From the NCBI RefSeq assembly GCF_009389715.1, contig NC_052392.1, positions 37,939,410 to 38,003,409 on the forward strand: 64,000 nucleotides of DNA, in the 5' to 3' direction. Both the position numbers and the translations under genes were made by a program. Origin of the DNA: Phoenix dactylifera. Its lineage: Eukaryota > Streptophyta > Magnoliopsida > Arecales > Arecaceae. Shown one piece after another: positions 3,774 to 53,457 of the stretch; position 1 is the stretch's first letter; the number at the start of each line of letters is the position of its first letter. The notes under the pieces are model-generated. The model was not told where the DNA came from and searched no databases. It was given only the letters and a program-made list of their open reading frames with translations.

Positions 3774-6555
3774 ATGGCCCCGTTCCTCTCTCTCCTCCTC
3801 TTCTTCGTCCTCGTCTCCGCCGCCGCCGGCGGCCACCGCTACGACCACCACGGCCACCACTTCCCCCATCCCAACCCAGAAATCTCCGCCGCCCCGTTGT
3901 CCCAGATCCGCCAGGCCTGCAAGGCCACCCGCTTCCCGGACGCCTGCGAGTCGACCGTCTCCCAGTCCCCTTCCCTCCCTCCCAATCCCTCCCCCTCGGA
4001 CCTCATCCTCGCCGCCGCCAACGCCTCCGCCGCCGGCCTCTGGACCGCCCGCTCCATGCTCCAGTCCATCCTTAACGCCTCCGAGAAAGCTTCCAACCTG
4101 AACCGCACCAACACCGCCCGCATCTGCCTCGAGGTCCTCTCCTACTCCGATCGCCGCCTCTCCGCCGCCTTCTCCCGCGCCCTCCCCGCCGGCGCCCTAG
4201 CCGACGCCCGCGCCTGGGCCAGCGCCGCCCTCCTCTACCAGTACGACTGCTGGTCCGGCCTCAAATACGTCAACGATACCACCCAGGTCTCCGACGCCAT
4301 GGCCTTTCTCGCCGGCCTCGCCAACCTGACCAGCAACGCCGTCGCCATGCTCGCCGCCCTCCAGCGCTACGGCCCCGACATCGCCCGCTGGGGCCCGCCC
4401 CAGACCGAGCGCGACGGCTACTGGGCCGACCACGTGGTCTCCTCCTTCGCCGCCGCCGCCACCGCCGCTGGGACGACGGGGCACCTGCCGTCGGAACCCA
4501 ACCCGGACTTCACGGTGTGCAAGGGCGGGGGTTGCGGGTACGCCACGGTCCAGGCGGCAGTCGACGACGCGCCGGAGGGGGCGGCCAGCCTGTTCGTGAT
4601 CTACATTAAGACCGGGGTCTACGAGGAGACGGTCCGGGTGCCGTACGAGAAGACGAATCTGGAATTCGTCGGCGACGGCATGGGCAAAACCGTCATCACG
4701 GGATCTCTCAACGCCGGCATGGTCGGCGTGACCACTTACAACACGGCAACTGTCGGTAAGCAATCCATTTATGTCTGTCACGTAATACCGAATAGGACAC
4801 GTGGCAGTATTTCACTTACAAGTGCTCCTTCATGATTGCCACGTAGCCCAATTCGAGGATTACTCTGCTGGAGTAAAGGGGGGGCATAATTACTGGAAGG
4901 TTTATGGTAAAACGTTAGCATTAGAAACATGAGCATGGGAACAGCAGGTTTTCATGTGGAGTAATTATCGCCAGTAATTATGATCAGTTGCTTTCCAAAG
5001 CCAAAACTGGGAATTTTGGCTTTGGAAAGCATCTACGAACATGGAGGACACGAGGATCGAGCGAGCAGAGAAATTATTGAGGTCAACCGCTTTGAGTTCT
5101 CTTGCTTCTAGTCACATTTGGACATACAAAAAATAATTGCACAGAGGCTAGGCTAGCAATTTGAGCCAGGTCTAACACAACATATAGTTTTAGGTTGGAT
5201 TGAGTTTGTATCGCTCGGTCATGAGAGGTTTGGATTGATAATGGAGACTTGCTAACCAACTTTCCTCTCAGCCCAACCCAACATTTCTCCTTACAATTTT
5301 TCTTGCTTGATCCAATTAACCGGACAAAACGGGCCAAGCCTAGACGAGTCCTGCAAACCGAGCCTGCTCTAACCTAACAAGATTAAGGTAGGATCAGCAA
5401 ATTATGAGTAAATTTGGGTTCAATTTCAGAATATAAATTAGGTTTGGCATTAAACCTTGTAGAATCAGGTCATGTATGCCGATCCTAGTCAGTTTAAGAT
5501 TAAGATTTAATTGAGTTGATTTGTATTAATAAGTCAGGTCATGTATGCATTAGCCGTTATTAATTTAGGTTTTTTCAAAATATTTCGGTATGTGAGACTG
5601 ATTTTGTAGACTTAATTCTTTGCAGTTGTGCATCTTTGGGTTTCTCTCGCAGCTTAATCTCATACAAAAATGGAACGATAAAATCCAAAACTGGTATCTC
5701 AAGCAATTATAAAATTAACAAAATATTCTTTTTACATTTTTTTTTTCGAATATGGATAAGTTATTAATATCACTGTATTAGTGCTAAAGTCGGTTTTAAT
5801 ACTTGTCAATTAATAATGAGTCACTTTTGCCTCTCCGCGCAGGGGTCAGCGGCGACGGATTCCGAGCCCGGAACCTGACCATCGCCAATACGGCCGGGCC
5901 GGACGCCCACCAGGCCGTGGCCTTCCGCTCCGACAGCGACCTCTCCGTCCTCGACACCGTGGAATTCCTCGGCCACCAGGACACCCTCTATGGCCACTCC
6001 CTCCGCCAGCTCTACCGCAACTGCCGCATCTCCGGCACCGTCGACTTCGTCTTCGGCAACTCCGCCGCCGTCTTCGACAGCTGCCTCATCCTCTTCCTCC
6101 CCCGCCAGCTCAACCCGGAGCACGGGGAGTCCAACACCCTCGCCGCCCAAGGCCGCACCGACCCCGCCCAGTCCACTGGCTTCGTCTTCCACCACTGCGT
6201 CGTCAACGGCAGCGACGACTACATCGCGCTCTACCGACAGAAGCCCGCCGTCCACCGGGCCTACCTCGGGCGGCCATGGAAGGAGTACTCGAGGACGGTG
6301 TTCATCGACACCTACATGGAGTTCATTGTGAGGCCGGAAGGGTGGCTGCCGTGGGACGGCGACTTCGCGCTCAAGACGCTCTTCTACGGCGAGTTCGGGA
6401 ACTCGGGGCCGGGGGCCAATGCGTCGGCGAGGGTGCCCTGGAGCAGCCAGATCCCGGCTGAGCATCTCGGGGCCTACACGCTGGAGAACTTCATACAGGG
6501 AAATGAGTGGATAGGCTCCAATGGAGCAGTAGGAGACGTTTGGAGGAGGCGGTAA
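3774..6555 (+). CDS. Pectinesterase with N-terminal inhibitor domain, PME51-like (2 exons)
   Basis: Predicted exons are 3774-4755 and 5843-6555. The intron has a GTAAGC donor at 4756 and a CGCAG acceptor ending at 5842, phase 1, giving 564 aa. Residues 1-20 look like a signal peptide, so the product should be secreted to the wall. Residues about 40-195 are the PMEI-like pro-region, with Cys49, Cys58, Cys118 and Cys159 in the usual pattern. The catalytic beta-helix starts near 247. All family signature positions are present: GVYEETV (281), Gln351, Gln373-Asp374 in HQDTLY, Asp395 in DFVFG, and Arg471/Trp473 in LGRPW. It should remove methyl esters from homogalacturonan. No obvious RRLL-type processing site between the domains was seen. 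Exon 1 is strongly GC-biased at third positions, as in many commelinid genes. The splice join restores the GVSGDGF motif, so the model is well supported. The PME51 assignment is from recognition, not a search. Confidence 0.93.
4756..5842 (+). other. Intron of the pectinesterase gene
   Basis: This 1,087-bp AT-rich intron has GT/AG ends. It contains a stretch at about 5190-5480 with CCAACCCAACA and CGGGCCAAGCC words, resembling the family-like sequence at about 14430-15050. It may be an old repeat fragment, but no element ends were found. Confidence 0.8.
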
Positions 6556-34013: not shown

Positions 34014-34873
34014 TTGGAGAAGAGAGTTGGAGAAAAAGAAAGAGAGAGGGAGCATAGAAGATCAAATGAAGTAGAGCCTTGGTCACACGCCTCCCGGCGG
34101 GGCCAAGTGAGGGAAGAAAGGGAAAGTGAAGTGGGGAGCTTGCGGGCTAACCAACTAGAAGAGGTAGACCACCGGAGACCTCGGAGGAGAGGGGGAAGAG
34201 TTGAAGCTCGGGGCATTGAGATTGAAAGATGGTTAGATGATGAAGGGCCTAGCACAAAGGGAAGCCATAGTGAGGGAGAAAGTGAGCCTGAGGAGGAGCC
34301 ATTCCATGTCCGAAGGCCTATTCACCGGAGAGATGGAAGGAGAGTTCGGGTGGAGGAAGACTATGGTGAAGAAGCTAGGGGGTCATGGCCACAAGAAAGA
34401 GGGGTGAGGAAACCTAAGATAGACTTTTCCAAATTTAGTGGTGGAGATCCTTATGAGTGGATGGACAAGGCGGAGCAATACTTTGATGTATATGAAGTTC
34501 TAAGAGGAGATCGGGTCACACTTGCTAGCTTCCATCTTGAGGGAAGAGCTAGCCGGTGGTGGAGGTGGATCCGAGACCTTTATGAGAAGGATGGAAAGAG
34601 ACTTGGGTGGACGGCCTTCGTGAAGGAGTTCATGTCACAATGGGGTCCTCCCGTTGTGAACCATCATGGCCAACTAGCCAAGTTGAAGCAAGAAGGAATG
34701 GTGCAAACTTACATTGATAAATTTCGGCTACTCCAAACCATGATTAGTGGGTGGTCCGAGGAGGCACTCTTGGGCACTTTCCTAGAATGGTGCAAACTTA
34801 CATTGATAAATTTCGGCTACTCCAAACCATGATTAGTGGGTGGTCCGAGGAGGCACTCTTGGGCACTTTCCTA
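34014..34873 (+). pseudogene. Gypsy gag (Retrotrans_gag), frameshifted
   Basis: The frame opens with an Arg/Glu-rich stretch. It then gives the gag capsid core: KIDFSKFSGGDPYEWMDKAE, FHLEGRASRWW and FVKEFMSQWG. Gag forms the virus-like particle. An 89-bp perfect tandem duplication (34696-34784 and 34785-34873) shifts the frame and ends it at 34832. Downstream codons of the same domain are in another frame with a stop soon after. Confidence 0.88.
34696..34873 (+). repeat. Perfect 89-bp tandem duplication inside gag
   Basis: GAATGGTGCAAACTTACATT through TGGGCACTTTCCTA is repeated exactly with period 89, which is not a multiple of three. The perfect identity indicates a recent event or an assembly artefact. 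Confidence 0.93.
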
Positions 34874-35023
34874 GATGGGTTGAAGCCTTAGCTAGCCAAA
34901 GAATTGAAGCTCAAGCAAAACAAGACTTCAAGAAGCAATGAGAATGGCGGAGATCTTGGACCAAAGCTATGGTCCGGAGAAGAGAATGACCAATGAGAGC
35001 CCCACACCAAGGCCATTTCATCT

Positions 35024-35734: not shown

Positions 35735-35943
35735 AGCCAATATGCTAGAAAAGTTGTGCAAATGGAGGAGCATCTTACTTTGCCATTTTGATGATCGGCC
35801 AACATAATAAAGAAGGCAACCAAAGAAAAAATGAGATGAAGGGGGTTCCTTCAAGAATCCGAAATCTACTTGAAGGCCATCAAGAAGTCTTGAAGGTACC
35901 CACTACTTTGCCACCCTAACGAAGTTTTGATCATCCCATCCGG

Positions 35944-36045
35944 TTGAAGAATGAAGCTACACTGGTGAATGTTCCACCTTACCGGTATGCCCATTTTCAA
36001 AAAGGAAAGATAGAAAGGCAAGTGGAGGAGATGCTAGAAGGGAGG
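35944..36045 (+). pseudogene. N-terminal start of gypsy reverse transcriptase, before insertion
   Basis: The frame gives YRYAHFQKGKIERQVEEML, the conserved lead-in of Ty3/gypsy RT. It then breaks off and resumes 3.4 kb later at LIQHSTSSFSFPVLLMRKKD (about 39421). Confidence 0.8.
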
Positions 36046-37212
36046 AAGCAAGAGAGGATGCCAAAGGTTGTGAGAAATCTGGAGTTTATTTTTCGTTTTC
36101 CAAAAGCATGTCTCAACAAAGGTGAGAGCTTCCCTTTTTATAGACAAAATAAAAGAAGTGGATTCCAATTCATTTTGGAGTCCGAAAATCAATCTATCAG
36201 ACAGAACCTGATAAAGATAAAGCTATTTTACAAAAATCAGAGATGACTTAAAGTAACTTAAACAAAATTTGATCTGACATAAAGCTACTTTACAAAAGTA
36301 AGAAATGACTTAAAGTAACTTTACAAAAAGGTGAAAGCGACTTAAAGGAGATTCCTTCTGCTAAATGGTCTTGATTTAACACCATCTTCTGAAAAGTAGA
36401 TTCCTTTCTTATTGGTGAAGCAATAATTTCTTCACGAGAGTGCTTTCCTTCTGTCGGCATTAATAATTTTATTCTGATGTTGTCAGTTTTTTGCCTTCGT
36501 CTTTATGCGGGACAGCTTTTACTGCTCCTGTTCGAGATCTTCTGGCTAGAATTGTCTGCCATATCTCCTCCATTGGAGTTGGGGTATTCTGAACTTCTTG
36601 TTCTTCATATGGATCCTGGGATTCACCTGCTAAGCATACATAAGTGTTGTTTGCATCTTCAGGAGTATCAGAAGATGATTGCTTCGATGATGCAGATTTC
36701 ATTGATTTATCTTCAAATGCTTCAAAGAATTCCTTCTTAATTTTTTCAAGGCATTTTGCCTTAACTTCTTCTTCAGAGATGTTGGGATATCTCCTACTTA
36801 ATTTATATTTCATTGACATAAATAAATTGTCATCATTAGTGCTGGATTGCTGAGGAGATCCAAATATTTTTTCTCCTTATAAGCAAGAAGATTTTCTTGA
36901 ATGGTAATAAGGATACCATCTAGTTTGTCTTTGGGCATTCCGACCCACCATTTGTAAAGGGCATTCCTTTTTAGTACAGAAATATTGTTGCAGTCAAATC
37001 CAGTAGATAGAGTCCATTTTCATATCCATGGAATTCGATTTTCAATGAAGTAGATCATTGGGCAAGTACCAGTACATATCTGGTCATCTGTCATCTTATT
37101 TATGGTTGGATGGTTATCCACCCATTCTTCAAAGATTAAATAATTCTTTAGGTAATATTTTTATGTCGGGGCCAAAGAAAGTCCACCATTTGTTGAACCA
37201 GCCTAGAATAGG
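36046..37212 (-). repeat. Left arm of the pararetroviral inverted duplication
   Basis: Inverted partner of 38226-39410. Relative to the right arm it has independent small indels, for example a 2-bp deletion near 37130 (CTTTGAAG versus CTCTTTGAAG) and a 1-bp shorter A-run near 36875. Both arms have therefore decayed separately since the duplication. Confidence 0.88.
36133..36142 (-). promoter_or_regulatory. Left pararetroviral-type TATA box, facing left
   Basis: CTATAAAAAGG reads on the minus strand, preceded by repeated TGACTTAAAGTAACTT-like motifs (36240-36340). It mirrors the right-arm promoter and points out of the insertion into the gypsy protease region. Confidence 0.5.
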
Positions 37213-37914
37213 CTTGACCAAGATATTAGGATGTACCTGCAGGAACCAAGAGTGCTTCCTCTTAGAATTTTCATAATAAAATATGTTAGTAAATGCTTCT
37301 ATGTAGTCCCAGTAGGTTGTTGTGACTTCATGGCCATATTTCTTTATCATTACAGGCTTGTTGGGATCTAGTCCCCATTCCTGTGGTTGCATAATCCTGC
37401 AAATAATACATTTACTATAATTGATATAGTTATTTATATTATTATTATGAAAATTATGATTAATTTTCATAGAATCAGTGAGGAGCAATAATTTCTCCAT
37501 CATCTGTCTATTATTACCATCCATTGAAGGATATCCTTCATCGTCAAAGTATTTTTGACGTATGCACCATGGATCATTCATTTGTTGAATATCATTTTGA
37601 CCCATGTACATAATAATTTGCTCGTAATTATTTTGCAAGAACGAGGTGTTAATAGTACTTTCTTGAAGCACCTCTTTCATTGTCGGTTTCGACGATGACG
37701 TGGAAGAGAGATTTTCTCTTACAGCATTTTGCTGTTCAACCTTCTTTTGTTTCTGCTGATTGAGGTAAGTTGCTAGGTCCACCATTTGTGGTACCCTTTC
37801 TGGTTGTCTATGAAACAGCAAATTCGCTGTATTCATGGGAACATTGGCACTGCGTCCCCTGTTTCCTCGAGAAGAATTTCTTTCTCGAGCATAAGTTCCT
37901 CGAAGAGGAATCAT
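36469..37914 (-). pseudogene. Pararetroviral second frame (long copy), broken
   Basis: On the minus strand an Arg/Gly/Asn-rich N-terminus (from 37914) leads to a body with WDYIEAFTNIFYYEN, KHSWF and FNKWWTFFGP (to 37129). After frameshifts, a C-terminal part rich in Lys/Glu/Ser ends at 36469. This protein type is found in endogenous caulimovirid sequences next to RT-RNase H; its function is unknown to me. At least two frameshifts in the left arm interrupt it. Confidence 0.62.
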
Positions 37915-37924
37915 CCCTGCAAAA

Positions 37925-38225
37925 TTTCTCGTGTTAGAAAGTCTGGAAGATAATTTTCTTCAGATTTAATATATTCAATATTGAAATCAAACACAGATAA
38001 TTGTGCCTGTCATCCAGCAAAGATTTGCTTGGATACTAGATTCTTAATATCTTTTTCTTTGATCTATTTTGCTGCTGTGCAGTCTATTCTCAACAAAAAT
38101 TGTTGATTTAACAGATCACTTTAAAACTTTAAAATGCATTTAACTATTGAAAGCATTTCTTTTTTAATTGTAGAATACTTAGTTTGAGTGGGATTCCATT
38201 TTCCAGAAGTATATCTCACCATAAT
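37925..38225 (-). pseudogene. RNase H tail of the pararetroviral polyprotein
   Basis: Minus-strand translation gives SGKWNPTQTKYSTIKKE and, further on, NYLPDFLTRE. These match the C-terminal end of caulimovirid RNase H. Several in-frame stops occur. It runs directly into the start of the next frame at 37914. It lies in the single-copy spacer, so it occurs once. Confidence 0.62.
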
Positions 38226-38960
38226 CTATTCCAGGCTGGTTCAACAAATGGTGGACTTTCTTCGGCCCCGTCATAAAAATATTACTTAAAGAATTATTTA
38301 ATCTCTTTGAAGAATGGGTGGATAACCATCCAACCATAAATAAGATGACCAGATATATACGGGTACTTGCCTAATGATCGACTTCATTGAAAATCGAATT
38401 CCATGGATATGGAAATGGACTCTATCTACTGGATTTGACTGCAATAACATTCCTGTACTAAAAAGGAATGCCCTTTATAAATGGTGGGTCGGAATGCCCA
38501 AAAACAAACTAGATGGTATCCTTATTACCATTCAAGAAAATCTTTTTGCTTATAAGGAGAAAAAAATATTTGGATCTCCTCTGCAATCCAGCACTAATGA
38601 TGACAATTTATTTATGTCAGTGAAACATAAATTAAGTAGGAGATATCCCAACATCTCTGAAGAAGAAGTTAAGGCAAAATGCTTTGAAAAAATTAAGAAG
38701 GAATTCTTTGAAGCATTTGAAGATAAATCAATGAAATTTGCATTATCGAAGCAATCGTCTTCTGATACTCCTGATGATGCAAACAACACTTATGTATGCT
38801 TAGCAGTGAATCCCAGGATCCATATGAAGAACAAGAAGTTCAGAATACCCCAACTCCAATGGAGGAGATATGGCAGACAGTTCTAGCCAGAAGACCTCGA
38901 ACAGGAGCAGTAAAATCTGTCCCGCATAAAGACGAAGGCAAAAAACCGGCAACATCAGAA
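38226..38960 (+). pseudogene. Pararetroviral second frame (short copy), broken
   Basis: The + strand repeats the C-terminal two thirds of the frame found at 36469-37914: NKWWTFFGP, then IPWIWKWT, YKWWVGM and a KLSRRYPNISEEEVKAKC block. A 7-bp deletion near 38350 and another shift after about 38805 break it. It lacks the N-terminus because the inversion breakpoint lies inside the frame. Confidence 0.62.
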
Positions 38961-39290
38961 TAAAATTATTAATGCCGACAAAAGGAAAGCACTCTCGTGA
39001 AGAAATTATTGCTTCACCAACAAGAAAGGAATCTACTTTTCAGAAGATGGTGTTAAATCAAGACCATTTAGCAGAAGGAATCTCCTTTAAGTCGCTTTCA
39101 CCTTTTTGTAAAGTTACTTTAAGTCATTTCTTACTTTTGTAAAGTAGCTTTATGTCAGATCAGGTTTTGTTTAAGTTACTTTAAGTCATCTCTGACTTTT
39201 GTAAAATAGCTTTATCTTTATCAGGTTCTGTCTGATAGATTGATATTTTCGGACTCCAAAATGAATTGGAATCCACTTCTTTTATTTTGT

Positions 39291-39300
39291 CTATAAAAAG
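39291..39300 (+). promoter_or_regulatory. Right pararetroviral-type TATA box, facing right
   Basis: CTATAAAAAG on the + strand is preceded by CTTTAAGTC/AAGTTACTTTAAGTCA repeats (39088-39190) and followed by a C/T-rich leader. It is arranged like the intergenic promoter of caulimovirids and points into the gypsy RT remnant. Confidence 0.5.
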
Positions 39301-39419
39301 GGAAGCTCTCACCCTTGTTGAGACATGCTTTTGGAAAATGAGAAATAAACTCCAGATTTCTCACAACCTTTGACATCCTCTCTCGCTTCCTCCCTTCTCC
39401 ACCTCTCTTATCCTCTCTC

Positions 39420-40164
39420 TAATTTGATCCAACATAGCACTAGTTCTTTTTCTTTCCCCGTGCTACTTATGAGAAAGAAAGATGGGACTTGGAGATTTTG
39501 CACTGACTACCGAGTTTTGAATGAAGCCACTATCAAGGCTAGATTTTCAATCGCTACGGTGGATGAAATGCTAGATGAGCTACATGGTGTGAAGATCTTC
39601 ACCAAGTTGGACTTGAGGTCGGAATACCATCAAATCCGGATGGAGGAAGATGTACACAAAACGGCATTTCGGACTCATTCGGGGCACTACGAATACCTTG
39701 TGATGCCTTTTGGCCTTTGCAACGCACCTTCCATATTTCAATCTACAATGAATGTGGTATTCCGGTCCTACTTGAAAAGGTTTGTTCTAGTTTTCTTTGA
39801 CGACATCTTGGTCTGCTCACAGACCATGGAGGAGCACACGGAGCATCTAGGGGTGGTGCTCCACATTTTGGAGAAGCATCACTGCTACATCAAGCCTTTC
39901 AAATGTGCCTTTGCCCAACCGGAGTTGGAATACTTGGGGCACATCATTTCGGGAGGAGTAAGAGTTGACCAAAGAAAGATTGAGGCTATGGTGGATTGGC
40001 CACTATCCAAGAACATTTTGGCATTGAGGGGATTCTTGGGATTGACCGGCTACTACCGAAGATTTATAAAGAACTATAGGTTGATTGCTAAACCCTTGAC
40101 CACCATGTTGAAGAAAGGGAAGTTTGAATGGTCACCGAAATCACGAGAGGCATTTGACATTTGA
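39420..40164 (+). pseudogene. Gypsy reverse transcriptase remnant
   Basis: The frame holds the full RT palm: FPVLLMRKKDGTWRFCTDYR, FTKLDLRSEYHQIRM, MPFGLCNAPSIFQ, and the catalytic FFDDIL (YxDD equivalent, near 39800). The thumb/connection follows with LGFLG-type residues and GYYRRFI. In a live element this copies RNA into DNA. It lacks its N-terminal segment because of the insertion at 36046-39410, and it runs out of frame at the RNase H border (40164). Confidence 0.92.
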
Positions 40165-48595: not shown

Positions 48596-50490
48596 AAAAA
48601 TTATGTCATGTGCATCTTGAAACATGGCCGGAAGATGGCCAGGGCAGCATGGGTCGAGTATGCTGTTATTAGTATCTATCTTACAATTGGAAAATACTTA
48701 TCTATTGCCGCTATAATTTATAAATTAGCCTAATTCAGACATTGGTGAGGGTTGCTGAAGCTCTTGGTTCGTATGCTCTTCAAATCGGAGAGATTGAATT
48801 GGATCGTTGCATACCCCTACAGCAATGTTCCAATAGCCACTATGCTCGATCGGCAGTGATCCTGACATCGAGGACCCACGAGCCGGCGTTGGATGATGAA
48901 GGAATAATTTTGGGTGGTGCTTTGATGCTGGCTCTGACCTGAAACAAGAAAAGCAAAGAAGTCCATTTATCGTAGCGTGCTCAACAGGGACCCTCCGATG
49001 TCTAAATAAGACAACTTTTAGAAAACAAGAGGAGGTCTGAGAAGGAAAAAGAGGCTGCCAAGATAATCGAAAAAGAACTTACCTAGAGGGCCTCCGAAAA
49101 TGCAATAAATAGACGATGGTTGAAGCCCATCGCCGAGTAGTTTAGGGCTACATGCTAGTTGATAAAGTAACAAACTGCGTATTTTGTTCGTAAATCTCAC
49201 TCGTATTTTGGAATTTGCTCTGGTATTGCATTCATTAAGAAATAGTTAGAGATCACGATCGAGTTGTTGCCAATTGTGGAAAAAGTTTGAAATACAAAAA
49301 ATTCTTCGCATGCCTTTTTGGTCGGTTATATGGCAAGCTTTAAATGGTTAGCCTGCAACTAGGTAGCAAACTTTTATTAGTTAATTTGCCTTGTTAGTAG
49401 AGGTCAGTACAAAGTGTATCACTTGCCCTCCACTTCCAACGTCGAGGTAACCTGATTGGCGCGATCAAAGAAAGTAGCTTTCTTTAGACGAACTAATCAA
49501 TGAAAACTCGCTACCTAACCACTGGTTGACCATTCAAAGCTTGTCACGTGGCCAACCCAAAAGGATTGTGGAGAGTTCTCTGTATTTTAGACTTTCCCAT
49601 AGCCAGCAACAGCTCGATTGTGATTGCTAACTATTTTCTAACAAACACGATACCCGAACAAATTCCGTGATCAAGAATGGGGGCTGAGATAAGCAGTTTG
49701 TTACCTCAACAACCAGTGTATAGCCCTAAACTACTCGACGACATGCTTCGACCCTCGCCTATGTATTATGTTACCGTAGGCTCTTCAGATAAGTTCTCTT
49801 TCGACTTTCTTGCACTGCTTCTTTGCCCTTTTTGGGCCTCGTTTAGTTCTTTGAAAGTTGTGTCTAACTTAGGCATCGGAGGGGCCCTCGCTAGACACAT
49901 TTCAATATGTGGACTTCTTTGATTTTATTGTTTTAGATTGGAGCACTGCCTGAAGCCGTTCTTTCATTGTCCAACGCCGACCCATGGGCGCTCGATGTTC
50001 CATTGTCCAACACCGACTCGTGGGTGCTCGATGTTCCATCGTCCAATGCCGACTCGTGAGTACTTAATATCGGATCACTACTAATCGAGCTCAATGGCCA
50101 CTTGGACATCATTGCAACGATATGCAACGATTCCATCTGATATTTCTGACTCGATCAGTGAATGAGCCAAAATCTGCAACGACCCCCACCAACTCTGTGC
50201 TTAGGTCGTACTGGTTCCCAGCGGCAAGAGTACCTATACCTGTCCGGAGGTGGATTGGTTTGGGTAGAGTTAGGTGAGATAGGTTGTGGCGAGTTAGGGC
50301 AGGTAAAGTTACAAAAATGATTTCTTACACCATACTCCTTGGTGCCTTGATCAATATGGCATGTGCTAAGTACTTCCATAGTAAATTTATCATGTGCATC
50401 TTGAAAGATGGCCAAGAGATAGCCATAACGGGGCAGTATAGGTCAAGTAGGTTAATATCTGTACTTACCTTGTAATTGGAAACTACATAC
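48596..50490. repeat. Composite repeat: direct flanks around inverted copies
   Basis: The flanks at 48596-48712 and 50384-50487 are direct repeats (CATGTGCATCTTGAAA, then GATGGCCA). Inside, 48890-49200 and 49675-50056 are inverted copies at roughly 70% identity, sharing GCAGTTTGTTAC, TAGCCCTAAACTACTCG and GACATCGGAGGG-type words. This suggests nested insertions or an element with internal inverted ends. No coding domain was seen. Confidence 0.6.
49965..50072. repeat. 36-bp minisatellite, three copies
   Basis: Units starting at 49965, 50001 and 50037 read CATTGTCCAACGCCGACCCA and onward to CTCGATGTTC, with two or three changes each. Confidence 0.9.

Positions 50491-53408: not shown

Positions 53409-53457
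<49 letters not shown>
53409..53457. repeat. (AT)n microsatellite
   Basis: About 24 AT dinucleotides without interruption. Confidence 0.95.

Follow-up and report, generated by a model that had tools for sequence, protein, structure and literature searches.

We identified a palindrome of inverted viral copies within the reverse transcriptase (RT) of a Ty3/gypsy retrotransposon, in the 64-kb stretch of date-palm DNA analysed here (the window). This insert probably represents an endogenous florendovirus-type caulimovirid, in which two joined viral DNAs would have been captured as break filler in the gypsy RT. New here are the match of the outer ends to the place of the viral primer site, the apparently neutral decay of the copies, and the recurrence of inverted pairs in the palm genome. 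With its clear limits, the insert offers an example of captured viral DNA whose ends would correspond to a known step of reverse transcription, at the minus-strand primer site, and makes two questions testable: the chromosomal entry of plant viruses that lack an integrase, and the production of small RNA from inverted viral fossils outside tomato and soybean.

Structure of the insert and its target

The original prediction held that viral DNA forms a palindrome at this position. This was confirmed by a blastn self-comparison of the window (which contains no ambiguous bases), in which the inverted copies share 95.68% identity over 1,181 columns, and constitute both the top-scoring and the longest match. 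The insert and the interrupted element comprise the following features.

35920 to 36036, plus strand: left part of the split Ty3/gypsy RT (...VEEML), an open frame, with the gag and protease of the element upstream
36036 to 38225, minus strand: left viral copy, containing the RNase H tail, ORF2 and the promoter region
36036 to 37211, minus strand: left arm, about 1.17 kb, 95.7% identical to 39398-38226 by blastn
36037 to 36471, minus strand: promoter region of the left copy, TATA at 36135-36142 and AATAAA at 36085-36090, facing left (outward)
36227 to 36329, minus strand: 31-nt tandem unit, 3.3 copies, upstream of the left TATA, from repeat reading
36472 to 37914, minus strand: ORF2 of the left copy, with the frame broken in its 3' half; relatives are protein P0001 and 16 others
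37212 to 38225, minus strand: spacer (1,014 nt), the left copy continued, with the 5' part of ORF2 and the RNase H tail
37911 to 38225, minus strand: RNase H tail of viral ORF1, in a broken frame; 38121-38225 matches RT_RNaseH_2 (4.5e-7) and RT_RNaseH (5.3e-7)
38225 to 38226, no strand: head-to-head joint of the two copies, which have no base in common when read back from this point
38226 to 39423, plus strand: right viral copy, containing the 3' half of ORF2 followed by the promoter region and ending near the position of the primer site
38226 to 39398, plus strand: right arm, about 1.17 kb, matching the left arm by blastn
38226 to 38963, plus strand: right-copy ORF2, 3' half only, its frame broken by short indels, from sequence reading and alignment
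38964 to 39423, plus strand: promoter region of the right copy, TATA at 39292-39299 and AATAAA at 39344-39349, facing right (outward)
39104 to 39205, plus strand: 31-nt tandem unit, 3.3 copies, upstream of the right TATA, from repeat reading
39424 to 40164, plus strand: right part of the split Ty3/gypsy RT (LIQHSTSS...), matching RVT_1 (6.6e-35) and Ty3 RT (6.1e-59)

The spacer had been predicted to continue the left copy into the N-terminus of ORF2 and an RNase H tail, which the layout of its relatives bears out: these carry the spacer sequence adjoining the arm, and the spacer is 90% identical to date-palm contig C519. As the spacer is wholly left-copy sequence, it is therefore no separate element; what had been read as two arms and a spacer amounts to a pair of viral fragments that meet head to head, with the inner end of the left copy in RNase H and that of the right copy in ORF2. 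The outer end of the right copy extends approximately 25 nt beyond that of the left. The predicted bounds of 36046 and 39410 were accurate to within about 25 bases, and are here corrected to approximately 36036 and 39423.

The gypsy RT is interrupted between 36036 and 39424, thus between VEEML and LIQHSTSS as originally proposed, with the right half identified by its RVT_1 match. The left half (39 aa), a very short query, had no match in the PDB, and was recognised by sequence order only. The split RT is closer to Ty3 (6.1e-59) than to chain 8r0s (1.2e-31), which we take to be the cauliflower mosaic virus enzyme, and the domains of the target element follow in the order Retrotrans_gag (8e-11), RVP_2 (4.9e-9) and Ty3-type RT. 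No LTR pair was found around the gypsy element in the window self-comparison, and no target-site duplication was evident by eye at the edges of the insert. We additionally noted a perfect 91-nt tandem duplication (34696-34875) within the gypsy gag region.

Identity and coding content of the viral copies

The pieces of the insert share 64-93% DNA identity per piece with other date-palm loci (86-92% for RNase H and 77-93% for the ORF2 pieces). The insert starts in RNase H, of which a recognisable piece of only 34 aa is present in the window, and has no viral RT of its own, so that its link to the caulimovirids runs through the RNase H identity of these relatives. At one such locus (L018), the RT-RNase H encoded upstream scores 7.2e-92 against chain 8r0s ('Enzymatic polyprotein') and 1.6e-61 against Ty3 (4ol8). 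This best match, obtained via related loci, favours the predicted origin from Caulimoviridae and not from a retrotransposon.

According to Geering et al. (2014; PMC4241990), florendoviruses have an ORF1 that ends in RNase H, an ORF2 of 45-58 kDa in another frame, an intergenic promoter and a tRNA-Met site, and they insert in TE-rich DNA, frequently next to TA repeats; the word 'Phoenix' is absent from the main text of that paper. The date-palm copies resemble this layout, with the RNase H end of ORF1 followed by ORF2 in another frame (the ORF1 stop overlaps the ORF2 start at 37911-37914, minus strand), then the promoter and, in relatives, the tRNA-Met site. The ORF2 of locus L018 extends over 490 aa from stop to stop and had no Pfam match, as in the florendovirus second ORF without known domains; a frame that follows RNase H in another register, has a size of 45-58 kDa and lacks known domains was thus found in relatives. 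At one or more of the related loci ORF2 has an uninterrupted frame, which in the window is broken. The insertion likewise lies in TE-rich DNA. In contrast to many florendovirus insertions, that in the window is not beside TA repeats, with no TA run of at least five units within 35-41 kb. By its layout, we class the insert as an endogenous caulimovirid of florendovirus type. A 48-nt TA run was identified away from the insert at 53409-53456, where relatives of ORF2 match nothing.

The first open stretch of ORF2 (276 aa) shares 41% identity over 196 columns with an uncharacterised protein of Cornus florida, and a profile built from this Cornus sequence together with three pieces from the window retrieved 17 proteins, including sequences from Cornus, pea and two rhododendrons. 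ORF2 of the left copy had no Pfam match above the cut-off, and none of the 17 family proteins has a precomputed Pfam domain. When these proteins were compared with the window by tblastn, all 78 pieces matched at E <= 1e-3 (78/78) fell within the insert and none outside it. The family (P0001 and P0122-P0137) is conserved in several plants without a Pfam match, and is characterised by an RG-rich N-terminus, a W-rich core and, in most alignment rows, a CLAGESQ-like C-terminal motif. Its predicted fold gave no matches at E <= 0.001 in the PDB or a viral library, in a test that barely covered the core. The insert has no intact coding capacity. The 31-nt tandem repeats that precede the viral TATA in both arms may be enhancer-like.

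Outer ends of the copies

Minus-strand viral DNA naturally ends at the tRNA primer site. The sequence TGGTATCAGAGC, which we presume to be the primer site for plant initiator tRNA-Met, was found exactly in 14 of the 32 related copies read, 354-454 nt beyond the ORF2-arm end; the motif itself is absent from the window. In alignment with these relatives, the right copy crosses a pyrimidine-rich stretch to within about 1 base of the place of TGGTATCAGAGC before gypsy sequence begins, and the left copy ends approximately 25 nt before that place. This would put both outer ends at the point where minus-strand synthesis begins, or slightly inside it. The distance from TATA to the first exact TGGTATCAGAGC ranges from 100 to 158 nt among relatives, and that from TATA to the ends in the window is 106 nt (left) and 131 nt (right). 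As this distance is variable and the motif is absent from the window, we infer from the alignment with relatives that the right copy stops at the primer site and the left copy some 25 nt before it.

Divergence and decay of the arms

Base-by-base alignment of the two arms (1,168 aligned positions) gives 38 substitutions, of which 32 are transitions and 6 transversions, together with 5 indels, corresponding to a Kimura distance of 0.0335. Assuming between 2.6e-9 and 1.3e-8 substitutions per site and year, this distance corresponds very roughly to 1.3-6.4 million years, an age that is less certain if the arms exchange sequence. Polarised by relatives, 8 of the 38 substitutions are private to the left arm, 14 are private to the right and 16 fall in neither class, which agrees with the claim that both arms carry private changes and have decayed.

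We compared 225 codon pairs in the ORF2 of the two arms. Of 28 differences, 22 alter the residue, versus 70.6% expected without selection (P = 0.87 for as few or fewer residue-changing differences), and the differences are distributed 11/9/8 over the codon positions. The differences thus look neutral, suggesting decay without constraint. In a tree of 11 rows, the arms of the window resolve as sisters with 100/100 support; sister arms were similarly recovered at C6 (100/99) and at C12 (100/100).

Inverted copies elsewhere in the date-palm genome

Searches of the genome returned at least 47 matches to the left arm (in the best 40 of 130 candidate places) and at least 40 to the spacer (in the best 40 of 145). 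Merging these sets, which left out four short left-arm fragments and added one copy from the locus comparison, gave at least 51 copies in at least 26 clusters, 11 of these 26 (including the window) holding both orientations. Neighbouring copies within 5 kb of one another are arranged tail to tail in at least ten cases, head to head in at least two and in tandem in at least two. One of the two head-to-head cases is that of the window; the other spans the interval separating two palindromes on C16, which agree in their loops and inner ends and probably stem from a single event that was later duplicated. Inverted pairs are hence mostly tail to tail, and the head-to-head copy in the window is an exception. 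The original prediction did not include this recurrence of inversions in the genome.

An inverted pair of the ORF2 region was identified in 10 of 20 fetched regions, many of which had been picked for paired matches, with arms 92.8-99.3% identical, and in none of 7 shorter regions. Tail-to-tail palindromes of the same virus group, with arms in this identity range, are present at L010, L011, L013, L015, L016, L017, L018 and L027, and that of L018 covers almost all of the 9-kb region fetched. The centre of the L015 palindrome lies 362-375 nt past ORF2, at approximately the expected place of the primer site, with a loop of about 46 nt judged by eye; at other loci the tail-to-tail joint lies earlier or further on. 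An eleventh region, L014:1-9901, has inverted repeats outside the ORF2 region, which reach 1.4 kb in length and 99.8% identity. Finally, the C85 and C217 clusters contain tandem arrays in which same-strand copies are spaced by either about 1.8 kb or 6.1-7.4 kb, as if longer viral forms existed alongside others with internal deletions.

Origin of the insert

Under the reading that we prefer, a germline ancestor would have been infected and contained two linear viral DNAs, one truncated in RNase H and the other in ORF2. Their joining at the truncated ends, which we consider slightly more likely than not, would have yielded a product that filled a double-strand break in the gypsy element, with its natural primer-site ends toward the chromosome, and that decayed after capture without constraint. 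As a possible but distinctly less probable alternative, one nascent minus-strand DNA may have folded back and copied its own 5' part. The plus strand of 36036-38225 has minus-strand polarity (primer site, promoter region, ORF2, RNase H), and if a 3' end at 38225 had primed in ORF2, with synthesis running to the primer site and stopping there, the outcome would be exactly a longer left copy and a shorter, inverted right copy that share their outer end; the tail-to-tail palindromes elsewhere would then be the plus-strand counterpart. Such an event is consistent with the outer ends shared at about the primer-site place, with arms that are sisters and differ neutrally, as if identical at birth, and with the L015 palindrome, whose small loop lies near that place. 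Hairpin DNAs are also described in the old literature on cauliflower mosaic virus infection, which we count in its favour. The common outer end is, however, equally explained by a joint of two molecules, no base is shared at the priming point, and upstream similarity there amounts to 10 of 30 columns, a value equalled by 25% of shuffles. Furthermore, relatives carry both states at 14 of the 30 transition sites that differ between the arms, versus 29% of sites elsewhere (315/1,078; p = 0.044); this may point to a pair of parental molecules that were not quite identical, or to hotspots of mutation.

Later inversion or duplication, by host recombination, of a single or tandem insertion appears unlikely. 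Clusters with both orientations and tandem arrays do occur, and, as expected from local duplication, the two arms within each of the window, C6 and C12 group most closely with one another; by itself, however, a local inverted duplication would not position both outer ends near the viral primer site and against the two gypsy halves. A palindromic chimera produced by sequencing or assembly is very improbable. Loci L013, L015 and L018 match themselves straight through the centre, as missed-adapter long reads would, and the assembly contains the other inverted viral pairs with similar arms; the arms of the window, in contrast, are distinguished by their 38 substitutions as well as 5 indels, and on its two sides the insert borders different halves of the gypsy RT. 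At L009, L016, L023 and L027, one of the repeat's ends falls at the edge of a stretch shared with other contigs, without a mirrored flank, which speaks against mirrored reads.

Hairpin RNA potential

A transcript across the palindrome had been predicted to form a long hairpin, and computed folding of RNA over 36036-39398 agrees, giving 1,147 (plus strand) and 1,145 (minus strand) arm-arm pairs with longest uninterrupted helices of 174 and 213. As both viral promoters face outward, hairpin RNA would need read-through from an outside promoter. Read-through from either side would produce a duplex of about 1.1 kb; the transcript would terminate close to the AATAAA that lies toward the outer end of whichever arm is read second, potentially giving a polyadenylated hairpin directed against the ORF2 and promoter region of related viruses. 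RNA is the only plausible activity of the insert. In tail-to-tail pairs, the facing viral promoters would be expected to yield antisense RNA directly.

Valli et al. reportedly found in 2023 that inverted-repeat endogenous pararetroviruses of tomato give 22-nt siRNA. A review (PMC10377300) describes rearranged inverted-repeat endogenous pararetroviruses in tomato with dense 22-nt small RNA processed by DCL2, and caulimovirid- and TE-derived inverted repeats that also feed DCL2 in soybean. This kind of element is thus already known. The date-palm insert resembles that of tomato as a rearranged endogenous caulimovirid that forms an inverted repeat with hairpin-capable RNA, here predicted from sequence alone, but belongs to another plant, and its promoters in the window point outward. 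According to the same review (PMC10377300), endogenous banana streak virus loci contain fragments duplicated in the same or opposite direction, and are recent and replication-competent; the date-palm insert similarly holds viral fragments in both directions at one locus, but is broken.

More speculatively, inverted dimers could be a regular product of reverse transcription, generated by fold-back or end-joining near the primer site and repeatedly captured in the date-palm lineage, giving independent natural hairpin loci against one virus group; we consider this doubtful. If true, head-to-head loci would need read-through, tail-to-tail loci would be driven by their own converging promoters, and the whole would constitute a monocot counterpart of heritable RNA immunity.

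Other features of the window

We additionally identified an older palindrome at 48931-49944, with arms (48931-49386 and 49491-49944) that are 70% identical over 461 columns and a 104-nt loop, a structure resembling that of a fold-back or terminal-inverted-repeat element that has since decayed. A pectinesterase exon at 3774-4832 shares 100% identity with Phoenix dactylifera pectinesterase 51 over 93% of the query.
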